Notes under the pieces: model-generated
What the model was told of the DNA's origin: nothing
Seen by the model: the letters and a program-made list of their open reading frames with translations, nothing else
The model's database searches: none
NCBI RefSeq assembly: GCF_000340215.1
Contig: NW_006921550.1
Coordinates: 434,001 to 498,000 of the forward strand
Direction of reading: 5' to 3'
Length of the DNA: 64,000 nt
Origin: Pseudocercospora fijiensis CIRAD86
Taxonomy: Eukaryota; Ascomycota; Dothideomycetes; Mycosphaerellales; Mycosphaerellaceae
Made by a program: the position numbers and the translations under genes
Shown: piece by piece, positions 43,111-64,000 of the stretch
How positions within the stretch are numbered: the stretch's first letter is position 1
Layout: each line of letters begins with the position of its first letter

Positions 43111-43568
43111 TAGCGGAGATCCTCGCTACTACTAGTAACTAGGACGCGATAGGAATACTAGCTAGATAGGCAAATTTGCTCCTAATAATCTATATAATTG
43201 CTAGCAAACGTACGCCTAGGGCTAGGCCGCTCGTAAGCCTAAACGCAACGGAAATGCTAGCTAGGCGGGCTAATTCATTCCCGATCTACGTAGTTACTAG
43301 CAACCGTATACCTAGGGCTAGGCTACTCGGGAGCCTAAACGTAATAGAAACGCTACCTAGACGGGCTAATTCGCTCCCGATCTGCTATATTACTAGCAAA
43401 CGTACGCCTAGGGCTAGGCTACTCCTAGCTAGATACAATAATTCCCTCCCGATAACCCTCGCTACTATTAATAAGCGCCGCCCCGGAGCTACGCTACCTA
43501 TACTAGAGGGAATATAGGCTAGTCGCGCTAATTTCGTCTAGATAATCCTCGCTATTATTAATAAGCTT
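43111..43568 (+). repeat. 96-bp tandem repeats in a degraded coding region
   Basis: Units starting CTAGCAA[AC]CGTA..CCTAGGGCTAGG begin at 43,201, 43,297 and 43,393, exactly 96 bp apart, with more divergent partial units on both sides (cctcgctactattaataagc-type near 43,458 and 43,546). The period is a multiple of three, so each unit encodes a related peptide (TSKRTPRARLL, TSNRIPRARLL). The same peptide type resumes at 63,039, after the large insertion. Confidence 0.75.
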
Positions 43569-43700
43569 CGTTACGGAAACTTTTTTACCGATCGCGACGA
43601 TCCTATCGATAGGATCGCTTAGGATCCTTAGGATCCTTAGGATCCTTAGGATCCTTAGGATCGTACGTTAAAGATCTTGTCTAATAGGATCGTCGCGATC
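43569..43700. repeat. Left terminal repeat with palindrome and 9-bp tandem array
   Basis: After the terminal CGTTACG come four copies of AGGATCCTT (43,621-43,656) enclosed by a 17-bp perfect inverted pair GATCGCGACGATCCTAT (43,590-43,606) and its complement (43,684-43,700). The whole segment can fold on itself. Confidence 0.8.
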
Positions 43701-43969
43701 TAGAAATTCTAGCAAATCTGTTCGTATTAAGAATTTTGTTCTTTACCGTCCGACTCGTATATCGAGTCGGGCTCGAGTCGTCGCATATACTAGTACTAGC
43801 ATTTGAATTACATTTTCTATCGGATCTGCATATTATACGATAGTTGCTTCTGCTAATATCTAACGTTTATACGCATACTCGGGTAACTACTAGCATTTGT
43901 ATACGTCTACTATATATACTAAGTTAGTACCGACTTAGCGACCGACTCGTATAGTATTAATAGATTTCG

Positions 43970-44679
43970 TTATATTATATAGGGCATCTATTTATTACGG
44001 TTGATAAGAATGTATTCTATTCGTCCTCTACGGCTATATTAAAGCGATATACCTCTACCTTCTTTCGTTTGTTTCCTTTCGACTTCTTCTTCTCTTTTAC
44101 TATATATCTCCTAATTCTTCGATCCTACGTCTCCTCGTTAAATGCTATCTCCTTAACTTTGCCGCCGTCCGCCTCTATATCCGCCTACTATATCTACTCC
44201 CCCTCTTCTAGCCCTAATATATCCCTAACGCGATTACTTACCGCCGCGAATAAAGTCTTATCTATTATATAAGACTAGTCGGAATACCTACTATTCTTAC
44301 AGTAATTAGCGCGCAATCCTTCCCTGTTGCTATTACCGCGGTATATCTATACCTTTAGTATTAATTGTCTTCGGTTCTATTGTATTCTATTGTCTCGGTT
44401 GCACTTGTGCCGTTGCCTCCCCGTACCGAAGCAAACGGATTAGTAGCCCCCGTCGGCTCCTAATCTGTCGCTTAGAAACTGCTCTATAGTATAGGCAGTC
44501 TAATATCGTTTTTCTTAGGCAGGGCCTCCGCCTCCGCTAACCTATCTATCGTATTGTCGCCGGCTTTAAGTTGTTTACTTAATTGTTGCCCGGTAGACGC
44601 TTTAGGACCTGTCGATTATATTAGCAGGTAAGAGAAACACGGCGCTCGTAGACTACTCTTACTATAGCGCTCGATCGAT
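43970..44679 (-). pseudogene. Unidentified coding remnant, minus strand
   Basis: Read on the minus strand, stretches such as QLSKQLKAGDNTIDRLAEAE and NPFASVRGGNGTSATETIE look protein-coding, with TAG/TAA interruptions. No domain recognised. It runs into the assembly gap. Confidence 0.25.
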
Positions 44680-45495
44680 NNNNNNNNNNNNNNNNNNNNN
44701 NNNNNNNNNNNNNNNNNNNNNNNNNNNNNNNNNNNNNNNNNNNNNNNNNNNNNNNNNNNNNNNNNNNNNNNNNNNNNNNNNNNNNNNNNNNNNNNNNNNN
44801 NNNNNNNNNNNNNNNNNNNNNNNNNNNNNNNNNNNNNNNNNNNNNNNNNNNNNNNNNNNNNNNNNNNNNNNNNNNNNNNNNNNNNNNNNNNNNNNNNNNN
44901 NNNNNNNNNNNNNNNNNNNNNNNNNNNNNNNNNNNNNNNNNNNNNNNNNNNNNNNNNNNNNNNNNNNNNNNNNNNNNNNNNNNNNNNNNNNNNNNNNNNN
45001 NNNNNNNNNNNNNNNNNNNNNNNNNNNNNNNNNNNNNNNNNNNNNNNNNNNNNNNNNNNNNNNNNNNNNNNNNNNNNNNNNNNNNNNNNNNNNNNNNNNN
45101 NNNNNNNNNNNNNNNNNNNNNNNNNNNNNNNNNNNNNNNNNNNNNNNNNNNNNNNNNNNNNNNNNNNNNNNNNNNNNNNNNNNNNNNNNNNNNNNNNNNN
45201 NNNNNNNNNNNNNNNNNNNNNNNNNNNNNNNNNNNNNNNNNNNNNNNNNNNNNNNNNNNNNNNNNNNNNNNNNNNNNNNNNNNNNNNNNNNNNNNNNNNN
45301 NNNNNNNNNNNNNNNNNNNNNNNNNNNNNNNNNNNNNNNNNNNNNNNNNNNNNNNNNNNNNNNNNNNNNNNNNNNNNNNNNNNNNNNNNNNNNNNNNNNN
45401 NNNNNNNNNNNNNNNNNNNNNNNNNNNNNNNNNNNNNNNNNNNNNNNNNNNNNNNNNNNNNNNNNNNNNNNNNNNNNNNNNNNNNNNNNNNNNNN
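44680..45495. other. Assembly gap (816 N)
   Basis: Unsequenced bases. Any frame drawn across it is meaningless. Confidence 1.
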
Positions 45496-46029
45496 TTGAC
45501 AAGAAAACGCAACTCTAATCCGCCCTATCGTCGCCGTACTTCCGTTCTAGCCTTGCCGGATCTTTGCTATTCTTGCCCTTATGCTAGTTACGTTAGTCCT
45601 CTATTACCGTGCTCTAGCGTACGTTACCTTTATAAATTTCGATCTAATGCTAGTCGCTATATATAAACGAGTATCCTCCCTGTTTTCTTCTTCGAATCTA
45701 GTATCCCTATCCGACTCTGTCGAGTTAGATAACGACTTAGTTCTGTATTTATCTTCTTTGTAGTTGCGACCTATCCTAAGTGTACTATAACGAGTAGTAG
45801 TATTGTTGCGAATCTAACGTAGTATATATTAGACTATACGCGTCTTCGTGCTTGTTTACCCTACGAAAAGGGGGGCATTAAATTGCGGTTTCATCTTCTG
45901 CTCCTATATAGACTGCCCGAGTCGCCGTCTATAATCGCTTATTAGTCCTATCGGATATGCCCCGCTAACGCTGAAGCATAATCGTAGCCTATAGACTATT
46001 CGCTATTTTCGTACCTTGTCGACGCTAGC

Positions 46030-47400
46030 CCGATTCGGTCGCGAGTCGGATTCGGGAACTATTAATCTAGCGCTATTATTAGTCTAGCGGTAATTATTGC
46101 AGTCTATGCCGACGGCATATAGCAACACTATCGACATTGCACTAAAGCAATCGGCGCATTTAGACTATTTATTCCTCGCTCGGTCGCTACTACGGTATAT
46201 ATAGATGTATATTCTTTATTAGTAAATCAATCGGCGTTAGCTAATCCGCTAGGTCGAACATATACCTTCGAAGCCGCCTCGCAGCATTACGGGTTAGTTA
46301 GAACTATCTCTATCGGCGTATTTAGCCAATTCGAGGTTAATAATACCGTAGAGGCCCTATACTCGACAGATGCAATTCCAACTAGATTAGCTAGATATAT
46401 ACAATCTACCCTAGCACGACGACTACTAGTCGCAGCCGATTTAGCCTTTCCTTAACTATCGGGCTACCCCGAGTCCGCTATCGCTGCAGCGCGATTAGGG
46501 TGCTTAAATATAGGCCGAGATTAAATAGATAAAGGAAGAGATCGCGGCGCTTAAGACTGCTATACGTAATATGTTTACTATATATTAGTATATATCTAAG
46601 ATCAAAGCGTAGTGCTTATCGTAGTCGGGGCATCTTGCCTTCCGTTTGATAAATAGATTAGTGCCTATTACTATTAGAGTAGGACTTCTATATCGGACTT
46701 AGTGAAATTAATTATTTATCTCGCTTTTCTGCGTTTACATTTACGCTCGTTCTGCCTCCTTAATTTGCCTATAGATTGCAAATCGCAGCTGTAGGCCTCT
46801 ACCTAATGTATTAGATAGACTAGCCCTCTACTATCGCTCGTTGTTAATTCGAACGTATCTATATTAGTCGCTTATTTAATGCAAGGCGTCGACGCCGGCT
46901 TCGAAACTACAATCTACCTGTAGTATCTTAACTAATCGTTCGAGGTCTATATTATCGACTCCTACTAACGCGCGGCCTCTAACTATAGGCTAGCGATAAT
47001 CGAGTTTATATAGTCGATATATAGGTTTTACCTTCCCGTTCTACTCTTGCACTGTAACTATACTCTACTATACATTATTTAGTACGCGGTACGGCGGTAC
47101 CGCTCTAGATCCTTCTAGTGTCGCTAGTCTAGTATCCGTAGATATAGCAATTTCCGCGCAATCGCTAGTATCGCCGACTCTACGTGTTGTTACGCGTACC
47201 GTTTTTCGTCTCGTCCGTCGGCGATAATTAGAACAAATCTTATACACTAGGCACCTAAACGCAGTCTGTCCCTCTATCGTACGGATCTGCTTTACTGCCT
47301 TAGGGAACTCTTCTTCGTATTTCTCGTCTATTAATACTAGGTCGTATAGGTAACTTTGCGTCCTTCGGCGTTCTAGTAATAATAGTAATCGGAACGTGCT
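46030..47400 (+). pseudogene. Unidentified coding remnant
   Basis: The + strand shows coherent protein-like runs broken by TAG/TAA: TYTFEAASQHYGLVRTISIG, YSTDAIPTRLARYIQSTLAR, ASNYRLAIIEFI and IASIADSTCCYAYRFSSRPS. No family recognised. A further open-looking stretch continues to about 48,400. It may be the 5' gene of the large transposon or an extension of the helicase gene. Confidence 0.35.
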
Positions 47401-48896
47401 GCTAATCTAACTAGACTCCTAAATTGACCTCTCGACGCTAGCGTAAAATACGTAGTATATCGACGGCGATAGGCTAAGGCCGCGGGTAATACCGCCTATT
47501 GAATATTAATCGCGAGGTAGTTAAGTACGTAGCATTCTCGAAGGCGGTAGTTATATATATAGCGTAGTAGAAAGTCGACGTTAGTTAGTAGTAGAAACTA
47601 GAACTACTCTAGTCGCGGGGTTTGCTAATACCGACTCGGGCCCTAATTCGATATCGAATCGGGTACTAAGCCTACTAGGCAACTTCTACATCCTCTATTA
47701 CTAACTTCGGCAGCGGGTTCGGCAAATCACGTTATCTATTATCTCGCTTCTTAACCTTACGCCTAGTGTATTGTATTGCCGCGGATTTATATACGGTCGT
47801 TTATTCGGCCTCCTACGCAGACTACTACTCTAGTATACGATCTATAGAATATTTCGATCGTTTTATACCTTTGTTTGCTACTCGTTATAGCTAAACACAT
47901 GCCTTTTCGCCGCCGATAGAGTTAGTAGCATCTATAGAAAACATGCTATCTTAATCGTTAGCTCGAACTATCTACATGCCCTACTCTCGGGTCCTAAGAC
48001 TAACCGCCTTACTAGCCTATACCCTCGTACTATAGCGGGTCTAGTCTACCCGCTATCGTATAATAATTATTAGTTACTATAAGGACATAGATCGGTCAAT
48101 TTGGCTGTATTGCGTAGCTTATAAGCACTCGCGTCTCGCGCTTGCGATCGCAGTCGCAACTCTACTATAGATAGGCTTATATTTACTTTACTAACTTTCG
48201 ATTACTTGTTACGTAGTACTATGTTTACTGCGACTTATTAGTCCTGCATCTAGAACCGTCTATCGTATAGGGGTTCATACTATAACGATTATCTATAGCC
48301 TTATTACTTCGGTTACTAGTTGCGTAACTGAACTATTATATGCTTAAGCGCTAGATGCCTTACTTCGTCGATTTATTAGTTAGTTAGGCCCGACTCGCTA
48401 ACCGACCCGGTTACGACGTAGGCATTTAAGGTCGTTACCTTTCCTTATTACTGCCTTCTTCAACATTTACTGTTAACTCGCACTAATATACCTGTTCTAT
48501 ATATATATACCCCCTTACCCTCCCTATCGCACGTATAGTATATTATTTCCTTCGCTAATACCCTATTCTAACTCGTATATAGGCCGTACTATGTAACTCA
48601 GCCGTCGTGCTCGACTAGCATTAAGCTAGTATATATAGACACTCGTTATATAACGCAACTCTAACGGCTCGCGTTAGGGTCGGTAGGTATAAGCAGCTCT
48701 CCGCTCCTATTCTTACCTCCGCCGACCCTAACGTATAGCGAATTTTACTAACTCTGTTAGTTTATCTGCTACTCTCGGATAGTATACGTCGTTGTCGATC
48801 TATAGTCCCTAACCTCTGTTATATAAGTATTACTAATCAGTATAACCTGTTATATGCTAATGCTATATACTAGTTATAAACTCGTCGCCTACTGCC

Positions 48897-51800
48897 TTTG
48901 CCGAGATAGTAGTCTCTACGAATATTAAGGACTAGCTAAAGGACAACGAGCTACTAATTAAAGCCTTAAATAGCGGCAAAGACGTCCCTAAATATGTTAT
49001 ACTAAACCTGTATAGCATCGACAAGCCTCTTCTTACGTTAGCAATAAAAAGGCTCCTTCCGTATCTAGAGAAACATTTTTCATTTAACTAGTTGAAGGGG
49101 AAGTAGAGTCGCTAGCCCGTTAAGGGGCATTATAAGGAGGAGAAAGCTATAGTATACGCTATTGCTAGCAACCTCAACTATCCTACTAAACCTAGACGTA
49201 CGCTATTAATACCCGAATAGTACTTTAAAGATCCTAAATAGGCTCCGAAGTAGTACGTTAGGGGAATGCTTCCGTAGGATAATGCAAATAGTCCGAATAA
49301 TGAAATTTAGAGGTCTGTAGTCCACTTAGTATGCCGCCTTATATAGAAGGTTATAAGGGACAAGTTTACCCCGCCGGCCGGTAATAATGCTAAAAAGGAA
49401 GACGTATCCGAGAGCGAGACTAATAGATCCCGATAAACTACGCCCTCTATACCTAAGCGTAGAGCAAGTTCTGCCTCTACTAGTAAGACTAGCAGAGCCG
49501 GTCGGGTATTTAAGAGAATAACGCTAGGAGATTCGCACGGTAGCAAGGATACTAATCTAGTAATATCCGACGCGCTACGCCCTATTAAGCCGGACCGGGC
49601 TAAGATTACGTTATAGTTTAGTATTGTCGACTAGCGGTTACCTTTAACGGCAGACTACGACGTATTTAGCCTAAATTAGTCTATCCTATAATCGAAGACT
49701 TCTAATAATATTAGTATAAAGGATTTGTTGCGGCTCTAGCTCGTACGAGAGTTATTGCTATCGCCCGAACAGTAGAAGTACGAATTCTTCGTAGTGATCG
49801 ATCTAGCTCGCGGCCCTAAAGGTCTTTCTAAATGTAAGACTAATCCGATATTCCACTCCCTAGCTATAGAGATATATAACAGCTTAGATACTAGGATTTC
49901 TACTAGACTCGATTTCCTCGTCGGCAAAAATATAACGGACTATACTAGGATACCTTCTATATATCGTCGACCGTCCCTACTTAAGGCTTCTAGAACTATC
50001 GACCTAGCTTAGTACGGTGCTTCTATAGCCGGTAATCCTGCCGAAATCAATGTCGGTTAGGGTCCGCAGTCGCCTACGAAATCGGCTATTAAGTAAGCTA
50101 AGGACGACCGACTCGCTCGTAAGGATCGCGCCGATCGCGAGCGCTATAAACAGCTTATCGCGGATAGATTCCGGAAGATATATAAAGAGTAGGAGGCAGC
50201 TCGGCAGGCAGCCGCGCGAAAAGCTATAGCCGACGTCGCCGCGGATATAATAGCGATTTAGTAGGCTGTCGACAAGGCAGTTAAGGAGGTGCTCCGCGAC
50301 AACGGTTATAATAGGAATACTGCTTTACTTCTAGTCGCCCTCGACGATTCGGTTCGAACGGCCGTCCGTTCCGTATAGCCCGATACGACAGAGTATACGG
50401 TAAAGACCTATATTGCTTCTGCTCTACCTAAGATATAGCACGCTTTAAATAGACTAGTACTATCCCTAGTACAACCTCCGGCGTAGACAAATGCTAGTAA
50501 TAATACTAAGGATAATAGAAAAATTAATCCGAGTAAAGCCGATAATACTAATAGTAAGAAGGCCGGAGATATAATCGACTCGAAGCGAGATCGAATTCGC
50601 TAGAAATGGATCGAGTCGTTACCGAGTTAGATCGTATCGCTGCTAGATCCGAATAAGCCTGAACTCGCCGTACGACTACCGGGTACGCAAGCAGAAGTCT
50701 AAGCCGACCCTCTACCGATCTAGACGTTAGTAAATTTTGTCGATTAGATCTCGTCGGCGATACCTAGCTAGTCGATAGATTTAGATATAGAAACCGACGT
50801 CGAGAAGCAGTTATCTAGTAACGTATACTCCTATCTCGACGCTAAGAACTTTAAGTTAATATACGATTTTAGACTACTCGATCCCTCTTAGACTTTGCCG
50901 CGTATAGGCGTTGTTCCGCCTAATTAGAGATCGACTCGTCCGTTAAAGTCTTACTAATTCTATACAATTACCTAGACGCTTCTAGCTTCCGTTGCTAGCG
51001 CGGACTTCTATATCGGCGGTATAGACGTAGGCATAGGCAAGACGGTATATACGTTAGGGTACGTCGCTATAACCTCGATATAGTAGAGGGTATAGAGTAA
51101 TAACGGGCTATTAACTGCTAACGCCTATCCCTTTCGGCTATCCAATTCGTCGGTTAACCTAGGACTTCGGCTAAATAAGAAAATTGCGTTCGATCCGTAG
51201 GTATTAGCTAGCGGTACAAAGCCGGTTATCCGCCCTAGCGTTTACGTTGTCTGTGTTCCGAAGCAGCTAGCCGAAAACTAGATATATAAGATCGACAACT
51301 TTATGCCCCCCGGAGCTATATTCGTATATCTTATAAAAGACTCTAGTAAGCTAACGAAAGATAAGAGACGCAATAGAACTAGTCCGTAGAACTACAACTA
51401 GGTCGTATATATCGAGGACGTTCTTTATCTCGATTATATAGCGCTCCCGACTCGGCTAGAACTAGAACAGGTGTTCGGTATAAAGGTTATAGATAAGTAG
51501 TAGTTTAAAAAAGGCGTCCCAGTGCGCTTATTGCTTAAATACGAGGATATAGAAGTACCCCCTTGTTTATAGTACTATAAATGGATCGTCCTTACTACCT
51601 CGACTATAATATCTAACGTACTAGATTTTATAACGTACGAACGAGCTAAGAAATAGAAGTCCTAGACACGGTCGGAGAAATCTAATTCGAAACCGCCGCT
51701 ACTTCGTATACTAGCTACGACTATTATCGTCGACGAGTTTTATATTACTAAGATATATAGCGCTAAAGAGTAGACTGCCGTCGCTAGTCTTATAGGCTAT

Positions 51801-53340
51801 CCTTTCGTTCTCGGCCTAAGTAGCACCCCCTTTAGCAAACTATCTAATTTAGCTATTATCGCAACTGCCTCGGTATAGAGATACGTTAATGCCTACGATA
51901 TAAAGGGGTACCTCTGCCCTGTTTGGTCGCCTTCTATAGTACGGTTTGATTTCGTCGACTAATCGCTATCGACTAAAGAGACGCGCGATATAGAACGTAA
52001 CTTCTAGTTTAGCGATAATAGTAATATCTCCGACTCGGCTAGGCATATTAGCAATTAGGTTTCTAAGTACTTATAATCCGAATACTCTAACGCGACAGTA
52101 GGTCGAATAGAACTAAGTATTACGGATAAAGATACTCGGGCGCTAGACAAGTTTCGCCCTTAGTTGCTAACGAAAATGGTTCGCCTTAAGAAGACGCTAA
52201 TATAGCAACCTATACCTAATGCTCCGCGCGTACCGGCTATCGATTGTCTACTATATTCCTATTTTGATATCGGCTTGCAATTTAAATCTATAGAAGATCT
52301 AGCACTAAGCGAGTAGGTCGAAGAATAGAAGGCAGCGGAAGATGCTAAATTTATATACGTGTCTAAGATAATGCGGGTCTTTACTGTATTTCTATCGCTG
52401 CTTCTCGCACTACGGGGGGGCGATACGGACTTAATTAAGGAACTTAGTACTTTTATACTATAGGATATCAAAAATATACTTCCTAGGATACGCGACTACG
52501 GTTTATCGGATCCCTACCTCTAGGACTATATACTAACACTGTATAACGAGCCGGTTATAGTGTCGCTATAGTATATAATCCGAATTAAGCGTAGCAAGTA
52601 GCGCTAGTACGGGCATAGAAGTAAGATTGTGCTAGCTAGCTTCAAGCCGTAGAATATCTTCGTTTTAGACTTAGTACGTATCTATCTGCCCCCCTATCTA
52701 CTAAGCATACAAGACTAACATTTTTATAGTATCTTTAGTAGCTAGCTATATAGAAAAAAGACTCCGAGTATTACGATAACATCCTAAGCACTAGCAATAT
52801 AGTATATAGAATCCTTATCGATACTTAGAGTAGCTAGACCGATACTACTAGGGCCGACCTTATTAAAGAGTTCGTATCTACGAGGAACAAGGTAGATAGA
52901 TATAGCGACGAGAAGTGGCTTATAGTAGCATATATAAGCTAGATTACAACTAGTATAAACCTCCCCCCTACGGATACCGTTATTATTATCGACAACTACT
53001 AGACTCCGGAGGCTAATATTTAAATAGGTAGAAGAGTATCTCGCGCGGCCGGCGTTTAGAGGGCAGATTTCACGGAGTCGTACCGATTTGTAATAGTATC
53101 GGTTGTAATTATATAGGCAGTATAGGTTACAAGTAGACAGGTACGAGCTTAGGATATATAACAATCGCTCGGCTTCGAGAAGGAAAAAAAGAGGAAAAAG
53201 GGTAAAGTATAATAGGATATAGCTATAGCGTACGTCGGCGCTAGTATTACGAGCGGGGGAAGTAGTATATAGAGTCGACGTCGACATAGCAGATACGCTA
53301 TAAAATGTTAATATAAGCAAAGCAAGCCTAACGTTGTATT
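48897..53340 (+). pseudogene. SNF2-type superfamily 2 helicase remnant
   Basis: One frame can be followed from 48,897 to past 51,837, interrupted only by TAG/TAA in the parts I translated. ATPase motifs are present: motif I GGIDVGIGKT (51,015-51,044), motif II IIVDEFY (51,723-51,743; VDEF for DExx) and motif III LGLSSTPF (51,810-51,833). After a shift of frame the C-terminal helicase domain follows: SINLPPTDTVIIIDNY, then PEANI and GRRVSRAAG (motifs V and VI, ~52,950-53,045), with a basic tail (KEKKRKKGKV). The spacing is that of SNF2/DEAD-like helicases that remodel protein-DNA complexes. The ~700 codons before motif I have no recognisable domain. Too damaged to be functional. Confidence 0.75.
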
Positions 53341-53378
53341 TATCCGCGCCTAATGTTAATAACTACTACTGTAGGTAC

Positions 53379-53560
53379 AAATTAGCGATGCGACTCGACA
53401 ACCGACTTAGGGTACGAGTCGGTAAGCCTATACATTAGGAAGCGACCTAGACTACCGCTCTGCCCTTTAAATTAGCGATGCGACTCGATAACCGACTAGC
53501 TGTCCGACTTAGTCCGGCTTAGGTTGCTAATTAGCAAACCGACGTATTAGGAAGCTACCT
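53379..53560 (+). repeat. 88-bp direct repeat pair
   Basis: AAATTAGCGATGCGACTCGA occurs at about 53,379 and again at 53,467, each followed by a related string with CCGACT and ATTAGGAAGC. It lies just past the helicase remnant and before TATATA-containing DNA, so it could be an old promoter or subterminal region. Confidence 0.65.
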
Positions 53561-54124
53561 AACCTACCGCCCTACCCTTCCTATCCCCTCTTACTATATA
53601 TCCGTATAGCATGTTTCCCTATATTCCGTTACTACCTTCTTTGCGTATCGAGCATAATATTATTATATACCTATTGTTTTCGTAATAGAAACGCAACCTT
53701 TTTACGCAATTGCTCTAACTCTAGTGCTAACCGCTCTACCTCGTCTTATAGTTCTTTATTCGTCTTCTATCGCATAAATAGCGGCGGTCTATTCTTGCGG
53801 ATATATAGCGCTACCCTGCCCGAGATTCGAATGCTTCGTTTAATCTGTCTAACCGGGTCCTCTACGTTAGGAAAGGCTAACTAGCTACTACGTTTGTCGA
53901 CTCGATTAAGTGCTAACGACTCAACCGCGTACTACGATTCTTAACTGTCCTTTACCTTATCTATATTATCGAAGTTCCCTATCGTTCTAGTGTTAAGTAG
54001 AATATATATAGTATAGACCCTAGGCTAGGAAATCGAATACAGTCGACTAGGTTACGTAGTATAGGCGATCGGTTAAACAACCCTGCAACCGTAGCTAGAG
54101 CGATTAGCAACTAGCGCGCTAGCT

Positions 54125-54540
54125 AGAACTACACTCGGCGCTACGACACTATTTACTATACAGCGCTACTATTATACGTACGGAGCTAGACTACAGTTAG
54201 GGTAAAGGCGTAGACAAGGTTAACCTCGAGATAAGAACTACGCCGGCGATAAGGAGCATCGCGAGGAGGACGCTACGGCTACGGCTATCGCGGGCCTCTA
54301 GCAGAATAAGAAGCTAAACCCTATCTACTACTCGGCGCCGCTATTATACTACGGAGCAAGATTATAGCTAGGGCAAAAGCGTAAGTAAAGTCAAGCTCGA
54401 GACACGAACTACGGCTACGGCTATCGCGGGCCTCTAGCAGAACAAGAACCTAAACCCTATCTACTACGCGGCGCCGCTATTATACTGCGGAGCCAGATTA
54501 TAGCTAGGTTAAAGGCGGCAAGAGCATCGTAGGAGGACAA
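54125..54540 (+). repeat. Tandem repeat, 136-bp period, ~3 units
   Basis: The string CGGGCCTCTAGCAGAA starts at 54,291 and 54,427, 136 bp apart, inside longer units that also share CGGCGCCGCTATTATACT and GATTATAGCTAGG. A more diverged unit precedes them. Confidence 0.75.
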
Positions 54541-54603
54541 CCGAGTCGCCTAACTTACTCTCGGAGTATCCTACAACTATACCTTTATTATTCTCGCTAT
54601 ATA

Positions 54604-54821
54604 TTGCTCCGACGCATGCAACCTAGCGTAATGCCGTTAAGTTAGATAATAAGGGACCCGGCTTGCGGCTAGAGGTCTAGGTTGTTGTTTAGTGGTAGGC
54701 AAGAGTGCCCGAAAGCGGCCTTTCTCGAGCCTCTAAGCTTCCTTATAGCCCTCTAGCCGAATAAACGGTCCCTTATTATCTAACCTAACGGCATTACGCT
54801 AGGTTGTATGCGTCGGAGCAA
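54604..54821. mobile_element. 218-bp foldback (MITE-like) element
   Basis: Arms of 55 bp (54,604-54,658 and 54,767-54,821) are inverted copies with two mismatches, both G/A as in RIP. They start TTGCTCCGACGCAT. A ~108-bp centre is unrelated to the arms. No clear target-site duplication. The right arm abuts the Argonaute PAZ remnant, so this element probably cut into that gene. Confidence 0.85.
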
Positions 54822-55957
54822 AAGCCGTTTAGAGTTAAGGTTAGGCCTATTATCGGCTTCGCGAAGGCTACCGACAAGATCTAGGTTTAGCGTTTTAGCA
54901 ATGCTAACTAGGTTAGATTCCGCCTTACCGACTGTAGCATCCCGAATGCTACAACGCGACAGATTACTATAAATAATTACTTCCGTTAACACTACGGAAT
55001 TACCCTTAGATACCTAGATAGTCCGGTACTTAACGTTAGTATGCGCGCTAATCCCTAGTACCTACCTGCCGAGCTGTATACAATCCGTACTAATAAGCCT
55101 TATCGACGCCTACTTAGAGGCGACTAGACTTCTAAGATGCTTAAATTCGCAGCTATATTTCTAAACCTCGATGCTATATCTATTACCGGAACTCCTAGTG
55201 CTAGGCTTAGGAATAGTCCGCGGCTCTTCCGTCTTGCCGATCCTACCGGTAATTATTAGTTAACTCCCGTGAAGCTATTTAGCTTCTCGGTAGGTACTAG
55301 CATAATTACAGTGCCCGGCCGCATCCTAGATACTCCTCGCGTAGGCTATAATTCGAATTCGAAACCTAGTATACTATAGAAGGACTACTAGAACTTATAG
55401 AGCGTTAAGTTTACTAGACCTAGAAAATTTAACAAGTAGTCGGTCCTAGTTACTAACCGTAAGAGCAATCGAGGCAGTATACTATATAGTAACCTAGGTA
55501 GTCCTAAAAAGGCCTTTACAAAGCTCTACGGTAGCAAAGAGAAGTATCCGAAGATAACCGTAATTATCGTTAGTAAGCGTTACTACACTCGTTTCTACCC
55601 GACTCGTAGGCAGGATGCATATAATAACTATTAGAACCTACTCGCAGGTACAGTCGTCGACTATAGTATCGCCGACAAGATCTATATAGGGTCGGGCTAT
55701 AGGCACATTTAGGACTTTAAGGCACAGCACGACCCGCTTACTACGTAGTTACTAAGGACGAAATTAAGTTTAAGGCGGATGAACTTTAGCAATTTATATA
55801 CTACCTCTGCTACCTCTTTAGCCGTACGATAAAGGCTATGTCTATCTGCCTACTAGTATACTACGTAGACCTTCTTTACGAGCGTAGCCGTACCTATTTG
55901 TTTAGCGTCCTAGCTGAGAGTTATAGCAGTGATTCTTTAGTCTTTAACGCCGGATAA
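54822..55957 (+). pseudogene. Argonaute remnant (PAZ, L2/MID edge, PIWI C-terminus)
   Basis: The frame starting at 54,822 reads VRFRLTDCSIPNATTRQITI, NNYFR*HYGITLRY, NP*YLPAELYTI, NKPYRRLLRGD*TSKMLKFA, LRNSPRLFRLADPTGNY*LT, TVPGRILDTPRVGY and KFNK*SVLV: the end of PAZ and the linker into MID, as in fungal QDE-2/AGO proteins. About 25 codons on comes FTKLYGSKEKYPKITVIIVS, KRYYTRFYP and LAGTVVD (PIWI). After a frame change near 55,710 follow GTARPAYYVVTKDE, FIYYLCYLFSRTIKAMSIC and VYYVDLLYERSRTYLF, ending at a TAA (55,955-55,957). Most of MID and the first PIWI half, with the first three catalytic acids, are missing; the last metal ligand (Asp of YYVD) is kept. All stops are TAG/TAA until the end. 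Confidence 0.88.
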
Positions 55958-55994
55958 GAGTAGTCTCGTCTAGAGGATAAAGAAGAAGAAGAAG

Positions 55995-56090
55995 AAGAAT
56001 TCAATAGTAGGAGAATAAACTTTAGCAATTTATATACTACTACTGCTACATCTTTAGCTATACGACTAAGGCCGTGTTTACCTATACTAG
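55995..56090 (+). pseudogene. Second partial copy of the Argonaute C-terminus
   Basis: The string AACTTTAGCAATTTATATACTAC and its downstream sequence, which encode the L*QFIYY(L)CYLFS segment of PIWI at about 55,785, recur diverged at 56,003-56,090 (FIYYYCYIFSYTTKAV). The copy ends at the 206-bp hairpin, preceded by a GAA trinucleotide run. Confidence 0.65.
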
Positions 56091-56131
56091 ATATGCACCT
56101 TAGCAATCTAGCGCCCGGACTCGATATAAAC

Positions 56132-56337
56132 CTAATAACGCCGCAGGCTCGGATCTAGTACCGGCATATTAAAAGGGCGTATAAGGCTGCAATTATTATT
56201 AAGTAGCTAATCCCTTCGTTATAGGCGAAGGCAAATGGCTCTACCTATAACGAAGAGGTTAGCTGCTTAATGATAATTGCAGCTTTGTATACCCTTTTAA
56301 TATGCCGGTACTAGATCCGAGCCTGCGGCGTTGTTAG
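56132..56337. repeat. 206-bp near-perfect hairpin
   Basis: Arms of about 92 bp, beginning CTAATAACGCCGCAGGCTCG and ending CGAGCCTGCGGCGTTGTTAG, are complementary with few mismatches, mostly transitions. They enclose a ~20-base loop (around 56,225-56,245). It has the form of a foldback element or an inverted duplication. Confidence 0.88.
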
Positions 56338-56419
56338 CCTCGACCTTCGTTAACTACGGTATAACTACGACGGCGACGAAAATCCTATAGTACTTCTACC
56401 GAGAATTATAACGAGATGC

Positions 56420-57060
56420 TATAAAAGACAAGAAACTATATAGCGGGACCTAAAGCAGTACGGAACTCGTACGAGTCGAGACTGATTAGGCTATCCGCCG
56501 CGAGTCGGTAGCAGTAACAGTAGTAATAGGATATAGATCTAGTAGCCGAGAGGCTAGATAGGACAAGGAAACTAGATAGCGGGAAGTAAAGCAGTACGGA
56601 ACTCGTGCGACTCTAGGCCGAGTAGGCTATCCGCCGCGAGTCGGTAGTAGTAACAGTAGCAATAGGATATAGATCTAGTAGCCGGGAGGCTAGATAAGAC
56701 AAGGAAACTAAATAGCGGGAAGTAAAGCAGTACGGAACTTATACGACTCTAGGCCGAGTAGGGTATCCGCCGCGAGTCGGTAGCAGTAACAGTAGTAATA
56801 GGATATAGATCTAGTAGCCGGGAGGCTAGATAAGATAAGGAAACTAGATAGCGGGAAGTAAAGCAGTACGGAACTTATGCGACTCTAGGCCGAGTAGGGC
56901 ATCCGTAGTAAGTCGGTAGTAGTAACAGTAGCAATAGGATATAGATCTAGTAGCCGGGAGGCTAGATCGGACAAGGAAACTAGATATCGGAAAGTTAAGC
57001 AGTGCGGAACTTATACGAATCGAGGCTAAGTAGGCTATCTATAGCGAGTCGGTAGTAGTA
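56420..57060 (+). repeat. Tandem repeat, 136-bp period, ~4.7 units
   Basis: GACAAG(G)AAACTA..AGCGGG begins at 56,426, 56,562, 56,698, 56,834 and 56,970, exactly 136 bp each. Units also share GCAGTACGGAACT, CCGCGAGTCGGTAG and AGTAGCCGGGAGGCTAGAT. Units differ mainly by C/T and G/A. Confidence 0.92.
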
Positions 57061-57479
57061 GCAGTAGCAGTAGAATGCTAGGATAGTAGCTAGGACAATA
57101 ATTTCAACTAGTAGTAGCTGAACTCTTCGGCACTATATTAATCTATATTAAGGCCTATCGCGATGAAATGCATAGGCATACGTATCTGTACTCAAATTGG
57201 TCGCTATACATACCGGAATGTTTCAAGTTACTTCTAGGTAATTCGACAATCCGCGAAGGCGTAGTTGCCGCTAGCATATAGGATATAGGTTAGTCTAGCG
57301 CTAACCGAGCGTCTAATACGAAGACGGTAATACTAGAAAATGGCATCGTAATACAGCAGGATATAAGTTTGATATATTAATAGTATTACCGAAAAGTGCA
57401 GGCTAACTCTAAGATGCCGAGTCGTAGTATCAATCCGCCCCTAAATTATTAATCGACCCCGAACTTAGCAACCCTATAT

Positions 57480-58110
57480 ATAAATAATGCATATATCTAT
57501 ACTAGACTAGCAGTGCTCGTACGCTATCCTGCGATAGCATACAATACTACCTTAAGCCGACCGTAGCAAACGTTTATCGTACTACTTAGAGTTAGCGGTA
57601 GCCAAACATTCGAGTTATAGTAAAACGTACTTCTCTAGACACTATCGATGTACTGCTTATCTACGCCGCGGACTAAAGCAATAGTACGATCCTTACTAGC
57701 GTCCTAGTTTAATATACTGCCGTCCGGAAACATAATGTAGTCGGCGAGCTTAGTATTAGCTAGAACTAGATCGCATAGGAGGTATATAAACCAGTCTTCT
57801 AGGTACGAGCGATCGAGTAGCAAATCCTTGTTAGCGAACTAGCCTATAAAATAGAAAGAGGCACTAGTAGTAGTATAATTGCTGCCGACTAGAAAATAGT
57901 AGACGCGAGTATTATTACCCTCCCCGGCCTACTAGTATAGAAAGCCGATCAACTCTAGGTTATAACCTACAATATCTTATTAAGTGTAGGCGAGCGAGTA
58001 GGTAACACCCGGCTAAAGCACCTATATCGATACGATTAGCTCTAGATCTCGCTGCGTCGAAGATATAGTCTAGTATAAGGGCAATTCGACCCCGACCGGA
58101 AACACACCTA
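57480..58110 (-). pseudogene. Unidentified coding remnant, minus strand
   Basis: The minus strand reads NNTRVYYFLVGSNYTTTSAS, FANKDLLLDRSYLED*FIYL, ADYIMFPDGSILN*DASKDR and TIALVRGVDKQYIDSV, with TAG/TAA stops only in the part read. Protein-like and RIP-mutated; no family recognised. It is transcribed toward the 136-bp array, away from the transposase. Confidence 0.45.
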
Positions 58111-58959
58111 GCCGACCTTAACACCTAGAACCCTAAAGCGGGTTAGAGCCGCGGGCTCTAGCTAATAGAATAGTGCTATTGGCTAGGGAGCAGATAACTG
58201 GCGCACTATCCCTAGAGCGACGCGAGACCCGATACTTAGCTACGCTAGAGGTTAAGACATAGGTTGATATTAATAAGTCGGCGTATAGGTCTATATAATA
58301 GCGTGTATGTAATAGCGTATATATAATAGCGTGTGTGTAAAAATCAAATAGAGTCGATAGGATAAGGCTTTATACTTCTATCTAATAGGCGCACCGATAG
58401 GGTAGTCGTAACTGCTACGAGTCTTAGAGGCCTTAGATTTGACATAAACCGCTTATTAGATGCCGCCTTAAACGACGTCGTTACTAAGTCGGCTAAGCAA
58501 TACTTACTAGCAGTTACTCGAGCGCTATTCGTTCACTTTGCTTAGAAATACAACCTAGCTATAATATAACTAGAGCAAGCCTTAGTAGTACCGGGCGAAT
58601 TTAACGTAATTAATAATGCTACGGCGTAGTATCAAACCGGAGTAATGCTACTCCTATACGTATACAGAATTGAACATATACAACGCATTTTACGGTATAA
58701 TATATAGGCCTTAGGGCGTTAGAAGTAACGTAGAAGTCTAGTCGAAGTATAGTACGGTCGTTTATATTTGGTATTAATTTTCCGATTAGTCCTAACTAGT
58801 AGCCGAGTCGGACGGCGAGTCGGCATACAAATTAGTATTCAAATATTATCGCAAGAGGCGCTAGTAGAGTAACATTAAGTTAGTATAATCGAACGGGATA
58901 AATCCGAGATTTTGCCGAATCCGCGGGCTACGAATCGACATCGAGTCGGACCCCGACTT

Positions 58960-61900
58960 ATACCTAACTTCGTAGTAGTAGAGCCTTAGTAACTTCGTAT
59001 ACGTCGACATACGGCAACCCTATAGTAGCTATAGCACTAGCGCCTATTATCGAAAGCCAACTATATATATAGTAATGTCTTACTACATCGAATGCGGGTT
59101 ATATAACCGGCTACTTAAAAGCTCCTACGGCTATAAGCAATACAGAAACAAGTGCGAGAAACGCGTCGTACTAAAAGAATTTGCCGAGCACGATTCTACT
59201 ACAAACAATGCCGCGAAGCGAGCCCGACTTAACTTATATACGATCCAAGGTAGTAACTAGAGCGCCGAACAAGCCGACGACAGATCGATACTAGAAGGCA
59301 TATAGTAAGACGTAAATAAAGAAGGCACAATAGAAGCTATTCTAGCAACGATATTAACGCTAACAGTACTAGCGCTATAGGAAGACAAGGGAAGTATAGA
59401 TAGTATTAAATGGGATAGATATCTTAAATCACCGGAATTCGATATATAGGATAGCCTAGCGGACGAAGACGAAATAGAAAGCGTATAGGCAACTGCCGCC
59501 GGAACGACAATAACGCTAGGAAGCTAGAAGTTAATAAGATTACGGCTAACACTAAAAGGCTACCGTACCGCGGATAATATCGATGTATTTACCGAATACA
59601 CTAGCCGTACCGCTAGCAAGCCTATAGCTAGGTATAGCATAATTACAGTTTGGTATAGTAGAGTAAATACAAGCGCCTAATCTATAAGTAGCGTTAAAAT
59701 ACGAATATAAGATACTTCGGGCGAGTACGGAATATTTAAGTTACTATTCGATATAAGCTTTACGCAATTCTTAAAGAGAGAGAGAATATCCGGATATGCA
59801 ATTGCGAGGCTTTTCGAAGACGAGAGGCTAGCACTACTGCACGATCTACTAAGCTAGAAAAGTATAAAGGCTATAACGTCGAAACTGCGAGCTAGCGGTA
59901 TACTACTATCGAGGGCATTAGGTTAAATAAAGGTTCGAAAGCTATACCTTCCGACAAGTCGAACGGGTTGCGGCAGTACGGAGCTAGTACTGCGATACCG
60001 ATCCGTTAAGAAAGCAGTAATATTCTTAATAGGTTATAGTAGCTTTAGGAATAATCTAGTATATAAGCTATATCGAGCGTAGACGACTAACGACCTACTA
60101 TAGCGAATCTACTCTAATATAGCGTTAGCAGACTAGTAGTAGGATACCTAGAGCAAGATAAACATAGACGGCGCAACGATCGTACCTCTAATCGTATTAA
60201 CCGATAAAACGCAGATAACTAACTACTAAGGTAACTTAATAGTATACCCTGTATACCTTACTATCGGAAACCTATACGTACGAGCACGTAACGCGAACAA
60301 TAGACCCGGCACGATCTTACTAGGACTACTGCCGGTCGTTAAGGATAGCGATAGTTTTACTAAAAACAGTGTATATTATATGTCGATAGTATATATATTT
60401 CGCTCCGCTATAAAAGCGGCCGACGGCGAGGGCTAGGACATTATATACGCAGATAGCGCGACGCGCAGGTGCTTTCCAATCTTAGCAGTAATGTTAGTAG
60501 ACTATAAAGAGCAAGTTGCAATTACCGGAGTTAAGACAAATATGTATTGCCTAAGCTGCCTAGTATACCCGATAGAACGAGAGCACCTCGATATTATAGT
60601 AGAATAGCGGTTACACGAATCTACGAAGCAGCGACATCTAAGGCAACGCAAAGGCGAATATATAGCGAAGGATCCGTAGAACGTCTACGATATCGATTGC
60701 TTTATATAGCGCTAGAAACACGTCGATATATACCGGTCTTTAGTAGTAGACACACTATACTAGCTGCTAAAAGGAGTACTAATGCACGCAATCTAATAGA
60801 CTACGGACCTACTAGTAGACAAGATAAGCTATATAAAAACGAGGAGATACCGACTAGTTGCCGACTCGACCCCGAATAGGGGCCTATCTGCTAAAACAAG
60901 AAAGCTAGGGAAAATAGTAGTATAAGGGATTATCGACACGATACTAGACAGACGGTTCGCGTATATACACGTATACACTAATCTTCGCAAGTTCTACTAC
61001 TACTTAGCAGTTACTTAGTAGATAGGCTAAGAGCAGTAAAGCGTCCTACGAGTCTTATTAGTTGTATTTGTACTACTACTCGAAGAGGTCCGTTAACCGC
61101 AGGCGATAAGATTTCTATATATACTAGTAGACTTCACCGTTCTAGCGATATATAGATGCTATAACGACGAAACAGTTAAGTATCTTAGAATAGCATTATA
61201 CCGGATAAACGAATAGAAGAATGTGTTTCGCCTATATAGGGTAACAAAGGTATAGAAGAGGGCCTAGCGGGAGGCGAAGGCTACTACGCGAAGAACGAAC
61301 GACCTAAATAACGACGATGCGGTTACAATAGACGAGGACGACGAAGCTAACGAGCTAATAATAACACAAATAGAAGGGCACTTTAACATACCGAAATTCT
61401 ACGGTATAATATATGCCCCGAGCTATATTAAGACGTTCGGCAATCTTCTAGACTTAAATACTAGCCATTTCGAGCACAAATACTATAAACTACTAAAGCT
61501 TGCATTTCGGCTAATAAACAAGAAGCCTAGCTAGGAAGAAAGTATACTAAATAGCGATGCTAACAGATTAAACATACAGGCCGAAGACGACAAAGAATAT
61601 ATAGCAATCCCTGCAAATGCTCGCACTATTAAGGAGTATACGTAATAGCTAATAATGCTAACTGTAGTACGGCTAGTAGAGGACATCCTAGGATACTAGC
61701 CTGAGAAATAGAGGGACGGAAAGAAATCGGTTAAGTAGATTACGATAAGGGAGGCTATAGCTGCAATAGAAGAGAACTTAGGTCGCGACTTCTAATAAGC
61801 GATTGCGGTATTCGTACGGCAACAGGGTGCCTACGATAAGAATAGCGCATTAAGCACCGTAGCCGACCCTAACGATATCGTAACGGACTGTATATACGTC

Positions 61901-62840
61901 CTAGACATAGAGATCTGCTTCTACGGTGGAATCCGATACTAGAAGCCTACGGGTAAGGATATAGAATATCCTAACGCAGTAGCAGCCGACTTCGCGAGAT
62001 ATATACCAAACTAGGAGGGGCTCTACGGTAATAGACGTTATGATTTTATATAGGTATAGGAATACAACGTCAATTATATAGAAACACCTAATAAATTAGC
62101 GGTTCGATTCGGCGGTCGCCTACTAGCTTAACTAAAGTACGTAATCTCGATTAATATAGAAATAGGAATTAAATATAGGAAGAGGCTTAGGACGAAACGG
62201 AGGCCCGTTATAGGCGTTTTTGTTAAGCTTTACGACTATATTAACGATAAGAGCGAGTACAAGGATACGTATAGTCTAACGATAATCCGGCTACGGCGTC
62301 TTTTACCGTACTATAGTAGACTTAAAGGGCGACGGGTGTATAGCCTACTACTAGTCTATTACACATTGTACGCCGTATCTGTAGACGAAGGCGCCCTATA
62401 TAGGACTCGCTATATTAATAGTATAGTTGATTTCGAGACGTATAACACAATTTACGACGAGGAATAGGAGGATAAGGAAATGCGAGCCGTAAAGGCTTAC
62501 GGGCGAGTAATAAAAAGGCAACGTGCCGTATAGAGTATATAGAAATCGCACCTCCGAAACATAGAGGACAATAATACTAAGGCGGCGAAGAATGATTTTA
62601 TAGTTTATAGAGAACGTATAAGACAGGATGCAGCGATATATAGTAACGACGGTTAATATAATAGTAATACACTTGAAACTATAGTACTACTAGCATATTC
62701 TAGTTTAGACCGAGTCGACTAATACGACCGAGTCGACGAGTCGATAAGTATTAATATAGCACTATACGAATAGTATAAATACTACTAACGACTACGACTA
62801 CGAGCGACCTAGAGCGATCCTATATATACAAAAATTCACC
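58960..62840 (+). pseudogene. Plavaka-type (CACTA/CMC superfamily) transposase remnant
   Basis: One frame holds from about 58,960 to 62,840, with stops TAG/TAA in the parts translated. It matches the Plavaka transposases of fungi in order: ATIVPLIVLTDKTQITNY (60,176-60,229), VYPVYLTIGNLY (~60,242), TILLGLLPVVKD (~60,312), RRCFPILAVMLVDYKEQVAI (~60,460), CLSC (~60,550), LLKGVLMHAI, FLYILVDFTVLAIYRCYNDE (~61,110) and HFNIPKFYG..FGNLLDLNTSHFEH (61,379-61,480) ahead of LAFRLINKK. The usual motifs are SDKTQLT, YPVYLTIGN, LLGYLP, ILA.. DYPEQV, HFNIPKLH and FG..D..NTE. It continues ~350 codons past the core into a D-R-V-D/P-I-D repeat at the right terminus. The N-terminal limit is uncertain. Confidence 0.82.
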
Positions 62841-63038
62841 CTATCGATCCTATCGATCGCGTCGATCCTATCGATCGCGTCGATCGCGTCGATCGCGTCG
62901 ATCCTATCGATCCTAAGCGATCTAGGCGCGAGTCGGGTCGCGACTCGGTCGCTTAGGATCGCTTAGGATCGCTTAGGATCGCTTAGGATCGACAGGATCG
63001 ATAGGATCGACGCGATTAGAAAAAAAGTTTTCGTAACG
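62840..63038. repeat. Right terminal repeat: palindrome with 9/10-bp tandem arrays
   Basis: Arrays of CGATCCTAT / CGATCGCGT words (62,840-62,910) and four exact GCTTAGGATC units (62,951-62,990) face each other across GCGAGTCGGGTCGCGACTCGG. CGCGTCGATCCTATCGATCC and its complement form the long imperfect palindrome. The segment ends TTTTCGTAACG, the inverted partner of the left end. Confidence 0.8.
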
Positions 63039-64000
63039 TTACTAGCAAGCTTATACCCTAGGCCCTTATACGCAAAATAGTAGCTCGTACGACGCTAACC
63101 GATACGATAGCTATACGGAGCATAGCGAGCTAAATCCCGGTTATTAGCGTAAGAACCGGAAGGGAAAGTATCGCGCTCGCGGTTCCCCTTTACTATCTAA
63201 TAGCTCGTCGAGCGACGATAATAGCTACTATAGCGGAAAACACGGCGCGCATCGCCGGGCTCGCTATTATCGCTATTATAGAGATCGTTCCTCGTCTAAA
63301 TTAGACTCCGAAGAACCGGCCGACTATCGGTACTATCCTAGGTTCGATCTAGCCTATCTAGGATTCTTCGACCCGACGCTAAGTATAATAGAATACAGCG
63401 ACGGCGATTACGCCTTAGTAGGTAATAAAATAACCTACCGATCGGTATACGCCTTTATCTCGGCGGCTAAGGACTATATATATATCGTAGGATTAGAGGA
63501 GGTTTGCTTTAATATTTCCCTTTGTTTCCGCGGAATTATATAGACCTAGTACTAGGCGCAGATTTCTAGTTAAGATCGCCGCTATCTTTGTAAGGGGTAC
63601 GGCATTAAGCGTTAGCAAGAGAAGCTTAGCAAGCGCTAGAAGGTTTCGGTAGTAAAGGCGATAAAGCTACTTAACTAGCAGTCGTATAGGTAGAAGGACG
63701 TTAGAGTAGGGAAGTCGATTACGGACTATATTGTTATAACGATAAGGTTAGCGGGCGACGCTAGCTTCGGTAAAGAACTATAGATCCTATAGGCCTATCG
63801 CCGTTTAGAGCCGCGTTTCTAGGAGGCTTTATTCGAACTAGACGAGGATACGACGACGGACGAATTCGTTATAGCCTACGAGAAGAAGTTCTATATATAG
63901 GAGTAGATAGCTACCGGAGGTAAGAATCGTCGCTAGCCTAACTATTAGGGAGTCGGTCGCGATAATCTACTAAGGAGAGCCGACGGTGCTCGGAATTAGA
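63039..64000 (+). mobile_element. Host element resumed, gag-like remnant
   Basis: Directly after the large transposon the sequence TTACTAGCAAGCTTATACCC resembles the 96-bp repeat unit of the left flank. From about 63,180 a frame reads FDLAYLGFFDPTLSIIEYSD, GDYALVGNKITYRSVYAFIS, AAKDYIYIVGLEEV and FNISLCFRG, then SITDYIVITIRLAGDASFGK and EFVIAYEKKFY. This resembles the gag-like first ORF of fungal retroelements (GYF.P-D, GD.V.VG, Y.V..FI...KD, LRG), broken by TAG/TAA. It continues past the window edge. Confidence 0.5.

Follow-up and report, generated by a model that had tools for sequence, protein, structure and literature searches.

How does a fragment of an Argonaute gene come to lie between a helicase-like gene and a transposase gene, within a single pair of inverted ends? 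Argonaute is an RNA-silencing gene, and such machinery normally restrains jumping genes. The question arises in a stretch of 64,000 nucleotides from the ascomycete Pseudocercospora fijiensis CIRAD86, a fungus of banana leaves (contig NW_006921550.1, positions 434,001 to 498,000), here called the window. An initial annotation had proposed that inverted ends starting CGTTACG, 19.47 kb apart, enclose remnants of a Plavaka-type transposase, an SNF2 helicase and an Argonaute that together form one element. Our results point, with a probability of about 80%, to a large Plavaka-type cut-and-paste transposon carrying a transduplicated, truncated copy of a host Argonaute gene, which was amplified and then inactivated by repeat-induced point mutation (RIP).

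The ends and the gene order recur as one unit

The element spans 43569-63038 (19,470 bp), the coordinates first given for it. CGTTACG opens the left terminus at 43569, and the right terminus, inverted, finishes at 63038; the inverted ends match at 35 of the 40 terminal bases, and TT stands on both sides. The genome searched comprised 74 Mb in 30 contigs (labelled C1, C2, C3 and so on), and in the DNA searches only the best 40 candidates were scored, so that copy counts are lower bounds. For the left end (query 43569-43720) these were the best 40 of 285 candidate places, short derivatives among them, and for the right end (query 62820-63038) the best 40 of 260. Domain searches returned 64 Piwi and 70 Plavaka matches genome-wide. 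On the strand of the Plavaka match, a Piwi match was found 3.9-6.0 kb upstream of 31 of the 70, a right end within 15 kb downstream of 34 (mostly at 2.84-2.90 kb) and a left end within 40 kb upstream of 19 (mostly at 16-17 kb).

The helicase-like block (50601-52400; best 40 of 76 candidates scored) has 39 scored copies outside the window, 94-98% identical. Downstream and on the same strand, 33 of the 40 scored copies had a Plavaka match (within 25 kb), 26 a Piwi match (within 15 kb) and 24 both; a right end (within 30 kb) accompanied 27, a left end (within 20 kb) 17, and all four partners were present at nine. Seen from the Argonaute block (1160 bp; best 40 of 69 candidates scored), a Plavaka match lay within 7 kb downstream of 33 of the 40 scored copies and the helicase-like block within 7 kb upstream of 26, with both present in 23. 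This collinear recurrence at many loci is far above chance. The blocks recur together, in the same order and on the same strand between the same ends, rather than in separate elements with different ends, and the proposed linkage of the three remnants holds.

We examined 16 left-right pairs for target duplications, of which 15 could be scored (in C3:93298-112762 the left end was not located; in C2:7910672-7939000 the flanks, TT, were taken from direct reading). Matching 2-bp flanks, being TA, TT, TC or GC, were present in 13 of the 15. Random pairing would give 4.87 dinucleotide matches, and 13 were reached in none of 100,000 permutations. The features of the window element are as follows.

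43567..43568, target site duplication TT, left copy, matching the right copy
43569..43608, + strand, left terminal inverted repeat (CGTTACGGAAACTTTTTT...), 35 of 40 positions in common with the right end
43601..43662, subterminal 9-bp tandem repeats, GATCCTTAG-like
49002..52700, + strand, helicase-like reading frame with RIP-type stops
54820..55496, + strand, Argonaute fragment part 1, PAZ and linker 2, corresponding to nt 626-1302 of host gene L039
55507..55969, + strand, Argonaute fragment part 2, C-terminal ~45% of PIWI, corresponding to L039 nt 2021-2502
56009..56083, + strand, incomplete duplicate of part of the Argonaute C-terminus, corresponding to L039 nt 2306-2380
56132..56337, inverted repeat with arms of 94 nt and a spacer of 18 nt
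56432..57111, array of a 136-bp tandem repeat, common to the element's relatives
59000..62599, + strand, reading frame of the transposase, interrupted by RIP-type stops and containing the Plavaka domain (59969-60790)
62835..63016, right subterminal 9-bp repeats of TCGATCGCG and TCGATCCTA types
62999..63038, - strand, right terminal inverted repeat
63039..63040, target site duplication TT, right copy

Pfam domain scans covered 45520-63038, and on the + strand of 54500-63038 stops were read as X. At E<=0.01 there was nothing on the - strand of 54500-63038 and nothing on either strand of 45520-54499. Just beyond the left end, at 43188-43427, three tandem-repeat copies spaced 96 bp lie in RIPed DNA.

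Two short elements of 995 and 1035 bp, L102 (C3:1035390-1037000) and L103 (C2:3966730-3968300), are flanked by TT and AC. They have ~140 bp of terminal sequence in common with the large element and unrelated interiors, which points to putative non-autonomous members, and eight further left-end places, each read for ~270 bp, resemble this family. A short element of ~200 bp, suggested by the spacing of left ends, was rejected, as the two cases read proved to be ~1.0 kb each.

The transposase

The transposase had been annotated as Plavaka-type, and the domain search agrees: the PF18759 Plavaka domain is matched at 59969-60790 on the + strand with E=2.7e-42, and all 70 PF18759 matches in the genome exceed the curated cut-off. 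When aligned to a PF18759 protein of Rhodofomes roseus (P0121), the frame shows D in LTDKTQ, D in YADSATRRC, the string CLSC and E in HFEHKYYK. These aligned D, D, C-x2-C and E residues, the choice of which is our own, would represent the Plavaka catalytic pattern, the motif being that of the accessible part of PMC12730594. At one aligned position of the H(3-4)H motif there is Y here and H in the relative (LYXLLKGVLMH vs LHQLHQGVIKH), a change of the kind that RIP would give. The 2-bp target duplications fall within the 2-3 bp of Plavaka. In a large protein search the relatives of the transposase were two basidiomycete proteins, the better one 24% identical, with no ascomycete homologue among them. 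By its sequence, the putative transposase is of Plavaka type.

The Argonaute fragment and its host source gene

Argonaute domains were found on the + strand at ~54.9-55.9 kb (PAZ, PF02170, 8e-8; Piwi, 1.4e-10 and 3.3e-4; ArgoL2, 0.0013). The annotation as Argonaute thus stands as to domains and strand; what changes is the nature of the piece, which we now read as a truncated host-gene copy with no clear constraint in the window. Among the six Argonaute genes with long open frames in the genome, one on contig C3 (L039) matched the window fragment with 313, 61 and 123 bits in three stretches, as compared to 13, 10 and 33 bits for the next-best host Argonaute in the same stretches. DNA identity to L039 is 83% and 82% in the two parts, and rises to 88% and 86% after in silico RIP of the host gene. 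The L039 protein is 99% identical to its P. fijiensis CIRAD86 match, 88% to that of P. musae and 82% to that of P. eumusae, and a homologue at 64% identity is named Qde2 by its source. Codons of the fragment that separate the species agree with P. fijiensis in 20 cases and with P. musae in 2 (against P. eumusae, 35 vs 2), which places the source of the Argonaute in the P. fijiensis lineage. The fragment is, as judged from these alignments, a truncated copy of the host's own QDE-2-like gene.

Missing from the window fragment is L039 nt 1303-2020 (~718 nt, codons 435-673), that is, the region between ArgoL2 (357-385) and PIWI (501-809) together with the first 56% of PIWI. The lost stretch includes the strings DVTHP (from nt 1738), RQEMVDGLEEM (1861) and YRDGVSEGQY (1957), and presumably holds MID and the catalytic D, E, D of PIWI. 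The internal junction is crossed by all 40 scored Argonaute matches; 35 of them cover at least 1158 of the 1160 bases, 29 match the query in length exactly, and lengths differ by at most 15. A host gene copy lies between transposon ends and has been amplified together with them, as in transduplication. L039 has an open frame across the 847 codons read; as its matched part is open, the copy may stem from a transcript or from genomic DNA. On C2, what had looked like a long open frame next to a Piwi piece is a stretch of N.

RIPed copies of another host Argonaute, L040, occur outside the Plavaka element, at L046 (C27:83386), L049 (C1:86068) and L050 (C17:17287). L049 and L050 are each no more than 90 kb from the start of their contig.

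RIP, age and selection

The element has a TpA/ApT of 1.4-1.8 and a (CpA+TpG)/(ApC+GpT) of 0.35-0.39, and the gene-rich part of the window has ~0.5 and 1.3-1.5, respectively. Stops are present in all 70 Plavaka matches; most are TAG, the outcome expected if RIP acted on CAG and TGG. Over 3.4-3.8 kb, each of four copies differed from the window by 1-4 transversions, and 540 of the 611 differences were at CpA/TpG sites. The simplest reading of these patterns would be a recent burst followed by independent RIP of the copies.

The window Argonaute copy shows no clear selection, as its non-RIP changes match the neutral expectation: 25 were synonymous against a random expectation of 23.2 +/- 3.9, and 13 against 12.1 +/- 3.0 when all C>T and G>A changes were left out. 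For L055, a related copy described below, the numbers were 22 and 18.8 +/- 3.5. Among the six host Argonautes, L039 and L040, both with repeat-borne copies, have the highest TpA/ApT (0.68 and 0.73 vs 0.38-0.55), which gives a faint hint that RIP may have reached the original genes.

Related elements and the history of capture

Both flanks on the Argonaute sides are common to the window element and to L048, L055, L104, L105 and L106, and L057 has the flank downstream of the Argonaute piece in common with it. Capture by wholly unrelated elements was rejected for these six loci on account of this common flanking sequence. The Argonaute pieces differ in extent, given here in nt of L039.

L055, 532-922 and 1641-2502
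L048, 488-1195 and 1664-2498
L057, 298-2126
L104, 488-1729
L105, 527-1703
L106, 626-1729

We count five forms, taking L104-L106, which stop at much the same places, as possibly a single one. Differing extents at the same position in relatives imply that their ancestor carried a longer stretch, at least L039 nt 298-2502. A detailed comparison of seven Argonaute-bearing loci (the window and these six) revealed no whole-gene form. The longest piece belongs to a family consisting of L057 (C10:2800500-2808500) and seven other places, with copies 97-100% identical; no Plavaka match was found at this family within the 8 kb read.

L057 and L048 have 19 differences from the host gene in common that are other than C>T or G>A. 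At 247, 392 and 663 both have the same residue as P. musae and P. eumusae, and this ancestral state is also kept at 241 and 254 in L048 and at 405 and 475 in L057. The window and L055 carry the host codon at 241, L055 does so at 663 too, and at 254 both have ACG, a single change away from the GCG of the host. In the window fragment, 266 and 405 are ancestral, and 247 and 392 fit neither state. These few sites suggest that the younger copies parted from the host gene at a later time than the older ones, through re-capture or gene conversion.

The helicase-like frame

The frame at 49002-52700 had been annotated as an SNF2 helicase; it is a recurring, helicase-like frame, and its SNF2 identity is weakly supported. 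Four strings occur in order, GIGKT at 51030, VPKQL at 51255, VDEFY at 51729 and SSTPF at 51819, which we take to be motifs I, Ia, II and III. The spacing of the second pair is ~29, vs 27 in most host SNF2s. A profile built from 25 host SNF2 pieces matched the motif I region with E=7e-4 (best reversed decoy, 0.31) and placed the frame ahead of all 999 shuffles (12.7 vs 3.2 bits); with a sub-profile of motifs II-III the frame was again first, narrowly (4.5 vs 3.8). Other searches of the frame were negative: Pfam SNF2 (PF00176) gave nothing at E<=10, the PDB sequence search no match, the large protein search no homologue at E<=1, the 25 host SNF2 pieces taken singly no match at E<1, and an in silico RIPed SNF2 profile no match. 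Of the 25 SNF2 matches in the genome, the one nearest to any Plavaka match lies 32 kb away.

Just past this frame, on the opposite strand (52784-53362, -), there is an open frame of 192 amino acids without stops within RIPed DNA, which has no Pfam match at E<=1.

Weighing the explanations

In the course of events that we propose, a Plavaka-type (EnSpm/CACTA-related) element would have acquired a copy of the host QDE-2-like Argonaute between its helicase-like and transposase genes, the early element carrying a long part of this gene. Lineages of the element would then have lost different internal or terminal pieces of it, and the window lineage, left without the stretch from linker 2 to PIWI and the first half of PIWI, may have burst recently to at least 40 places, where its copies were RIPed independently. 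Presumably it was the transposase that moved these copies. The Argonaute cargo was most likely for the greater part a passenger, the ancestor's may have had a role in counter-defence, and a side effect of carrying it would be that many homologous copies of a silencing gene were placed in the genome.

Several observations weigh against this account. The flanking dinucleotides are unequal in two of the 15 scored pairs (C1:5314391 and C1:6170000), and seven of the 40 scored Argonaute pieces have no Plavaka match within 7 kb. The termini, CGT..ACG, fit neither PlavakaA (TGT..ACA) nor PlavakaB (CATCA..TGATG), and the element was assigned to neither; one copy, L004, begins TGTTACG. Synonymous changes exceed the expectation in L057 (58 vs 50.3 +/- 5.8; 28 vs 19.1 +/- 3.6 once C>T and G>A are left out) and in L048 (68 vs 53.9 +/- 5.9; 31 vs 19.7 +/- 3.8), as they do in L056, which is of the window's own type and partly masked (15 vs 9.5 +/- 2.6, reached in 32 of 1000 simulations; stricter count 6 vs 3.4 +/- 1.6). 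This excess may come partly from the constrained host branch, and past constraint on ancestral copies is possible. Finally, the residue pattern, seen at few sites, fits poorly with one capture and simple descent, and would call for a second capture or for gene conversion from the host gene.

That three unrelated repeats came to be nested or adjacent by chance between unrelated inverted ends could be imagined in a repeat-dense region where some end pairs are 28-31 kb apart. Yet the ends, order, strand and spacing recur, the junction is common to all 40 scored Argonaute matches and the target duplications match; we reject this explanation because the unit recurs, and consider it exceedingly improbable. 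Another possibility is that the ancestral element bore a full working Argonaute, or a decoy containing PAZ, with which it evaded or reshaped host RNA silencing, and that we now see its wreck. The cargo is indeed a silencing gene and not a random gene, it occupies the same place in several relatives of the element, one family still spans L039 nt 298-2126, and L048, L057 and L056 show some synonymous excess; moreover, TET/JBP genes on fungal DNA transposons, Plavaka included, are thought to counter silencing, according to the accessible text of PMC12730594. Against it, all 40 scored window-type matches cross the junction at which the first half of PIWI is lost, no whole-gene form is among the seven loci, and the non-RIP changes of the window copy look neutral. 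We regard a working ancestral Argonaute of this kind as unlikely.

The homology could also act at the level of nucleic acid, the copies drawing small RNAs, methylation or RIP onto the host gene and so weakening silencing. The high copy number and the 83% identity to the host gene would suit such an effect, as would the TpA/ApT of L039 and L040, the highest of the six host Argonautes (six being too few for a test), and in Zymoseptoria tritici a DNA methyltransferase was lost after amplification and RIP (accessible part of PMC6710886). However, L039 is open over its 847 codons, and its (CpA+TpG)/(ApC+GpT) of 1.21 is near the 1.24-1.60 of the other host Argonautes. We judge this explanation to be very unlikely. 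A wider proposal, that an ascomycete Plavaka lineage was an anti-silencing transposon which acquired and later refreshed the host Argonaute, as protein decoy or as homologous nucleic acid, before RIP struck, is speculative, and we hold it to be doubtful. We return to the transposon with a truncated, mostly passenger Argonaute as our preferred reading.

Comparison with known systems

The main text of the Plavaka paper, in its accessible part, does not mention Argonaute (PMC12730594), and neither Argonaute nor Plavaka was found mentioned in the accessible parts of PMC3562529, PMC4981457, PMC13041039 and PMC4981473. We found no report of a DNA transposon with a captured Argonaute in the open-access literature as far as it was accessible, most subscription journals being outside this scope. 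The captured Argonaute extends to the RNA-silencing pathway a fungal list that comprises the capture of histone H3 and of TET/JBP and the loss of the Z. tritici methyltransferase. It raises the question whether the capture or the retention of genes that control transposons exceeds what chance would give. The finding also puts a Plavaka-type element that has a helicase-like gene into an ascomycete, and the captured pieces, being of differing age, make the choice between passenger and counter-defence directly testable in sister species. If true, an anti-silencing Plavaka would be the RNA-silencing counterpart of the transposons carrying TET/JBP.

Pack-type transposons (Pack-MULE, Pack-CACTA) are carriers of gene fragments and typically non-autonomous. 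The window element resembles them in having a host gene fragment between terminal repeats and differs in carrying its own transposase gene. A closer parallel comes from the same species, where a hAT transposon captured histone H3 and the copies were RIPed while the original was spared (accessible part of Dhillon 2019, PMC6710886). In both cases a host gene between transposon ends was amplified and its copies were wrecked by RIP, and the initial annotation of an Argonaute cargo is better read, in parallel, as transduplication of a host silencing gene. The histone carrier differs in being a hAT element of ~9.5 kb with 8-bp target duplications and a cargo reported, in the accessible text, as transcript-derived (PMC6710886). 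For Plavaka, of the EnSpm/CACTA-Mirage-Chapaev-Transib (CMCT) group, the accessible description covers termini, target duplications of 2-3 bp and TET/JBP cargo (Kojima 2025, PMC12730594). The window element agrees with it in a PF18759 domain whose D, D, E and C(2)C positions can be aligned, in 2-bp duplications and in cargo linked to silencing, and departs from it in termini of CGT..ACG, an ascomycete host, a length of 19.5 kb and a cargo that is a piece of the host's Argonaute.

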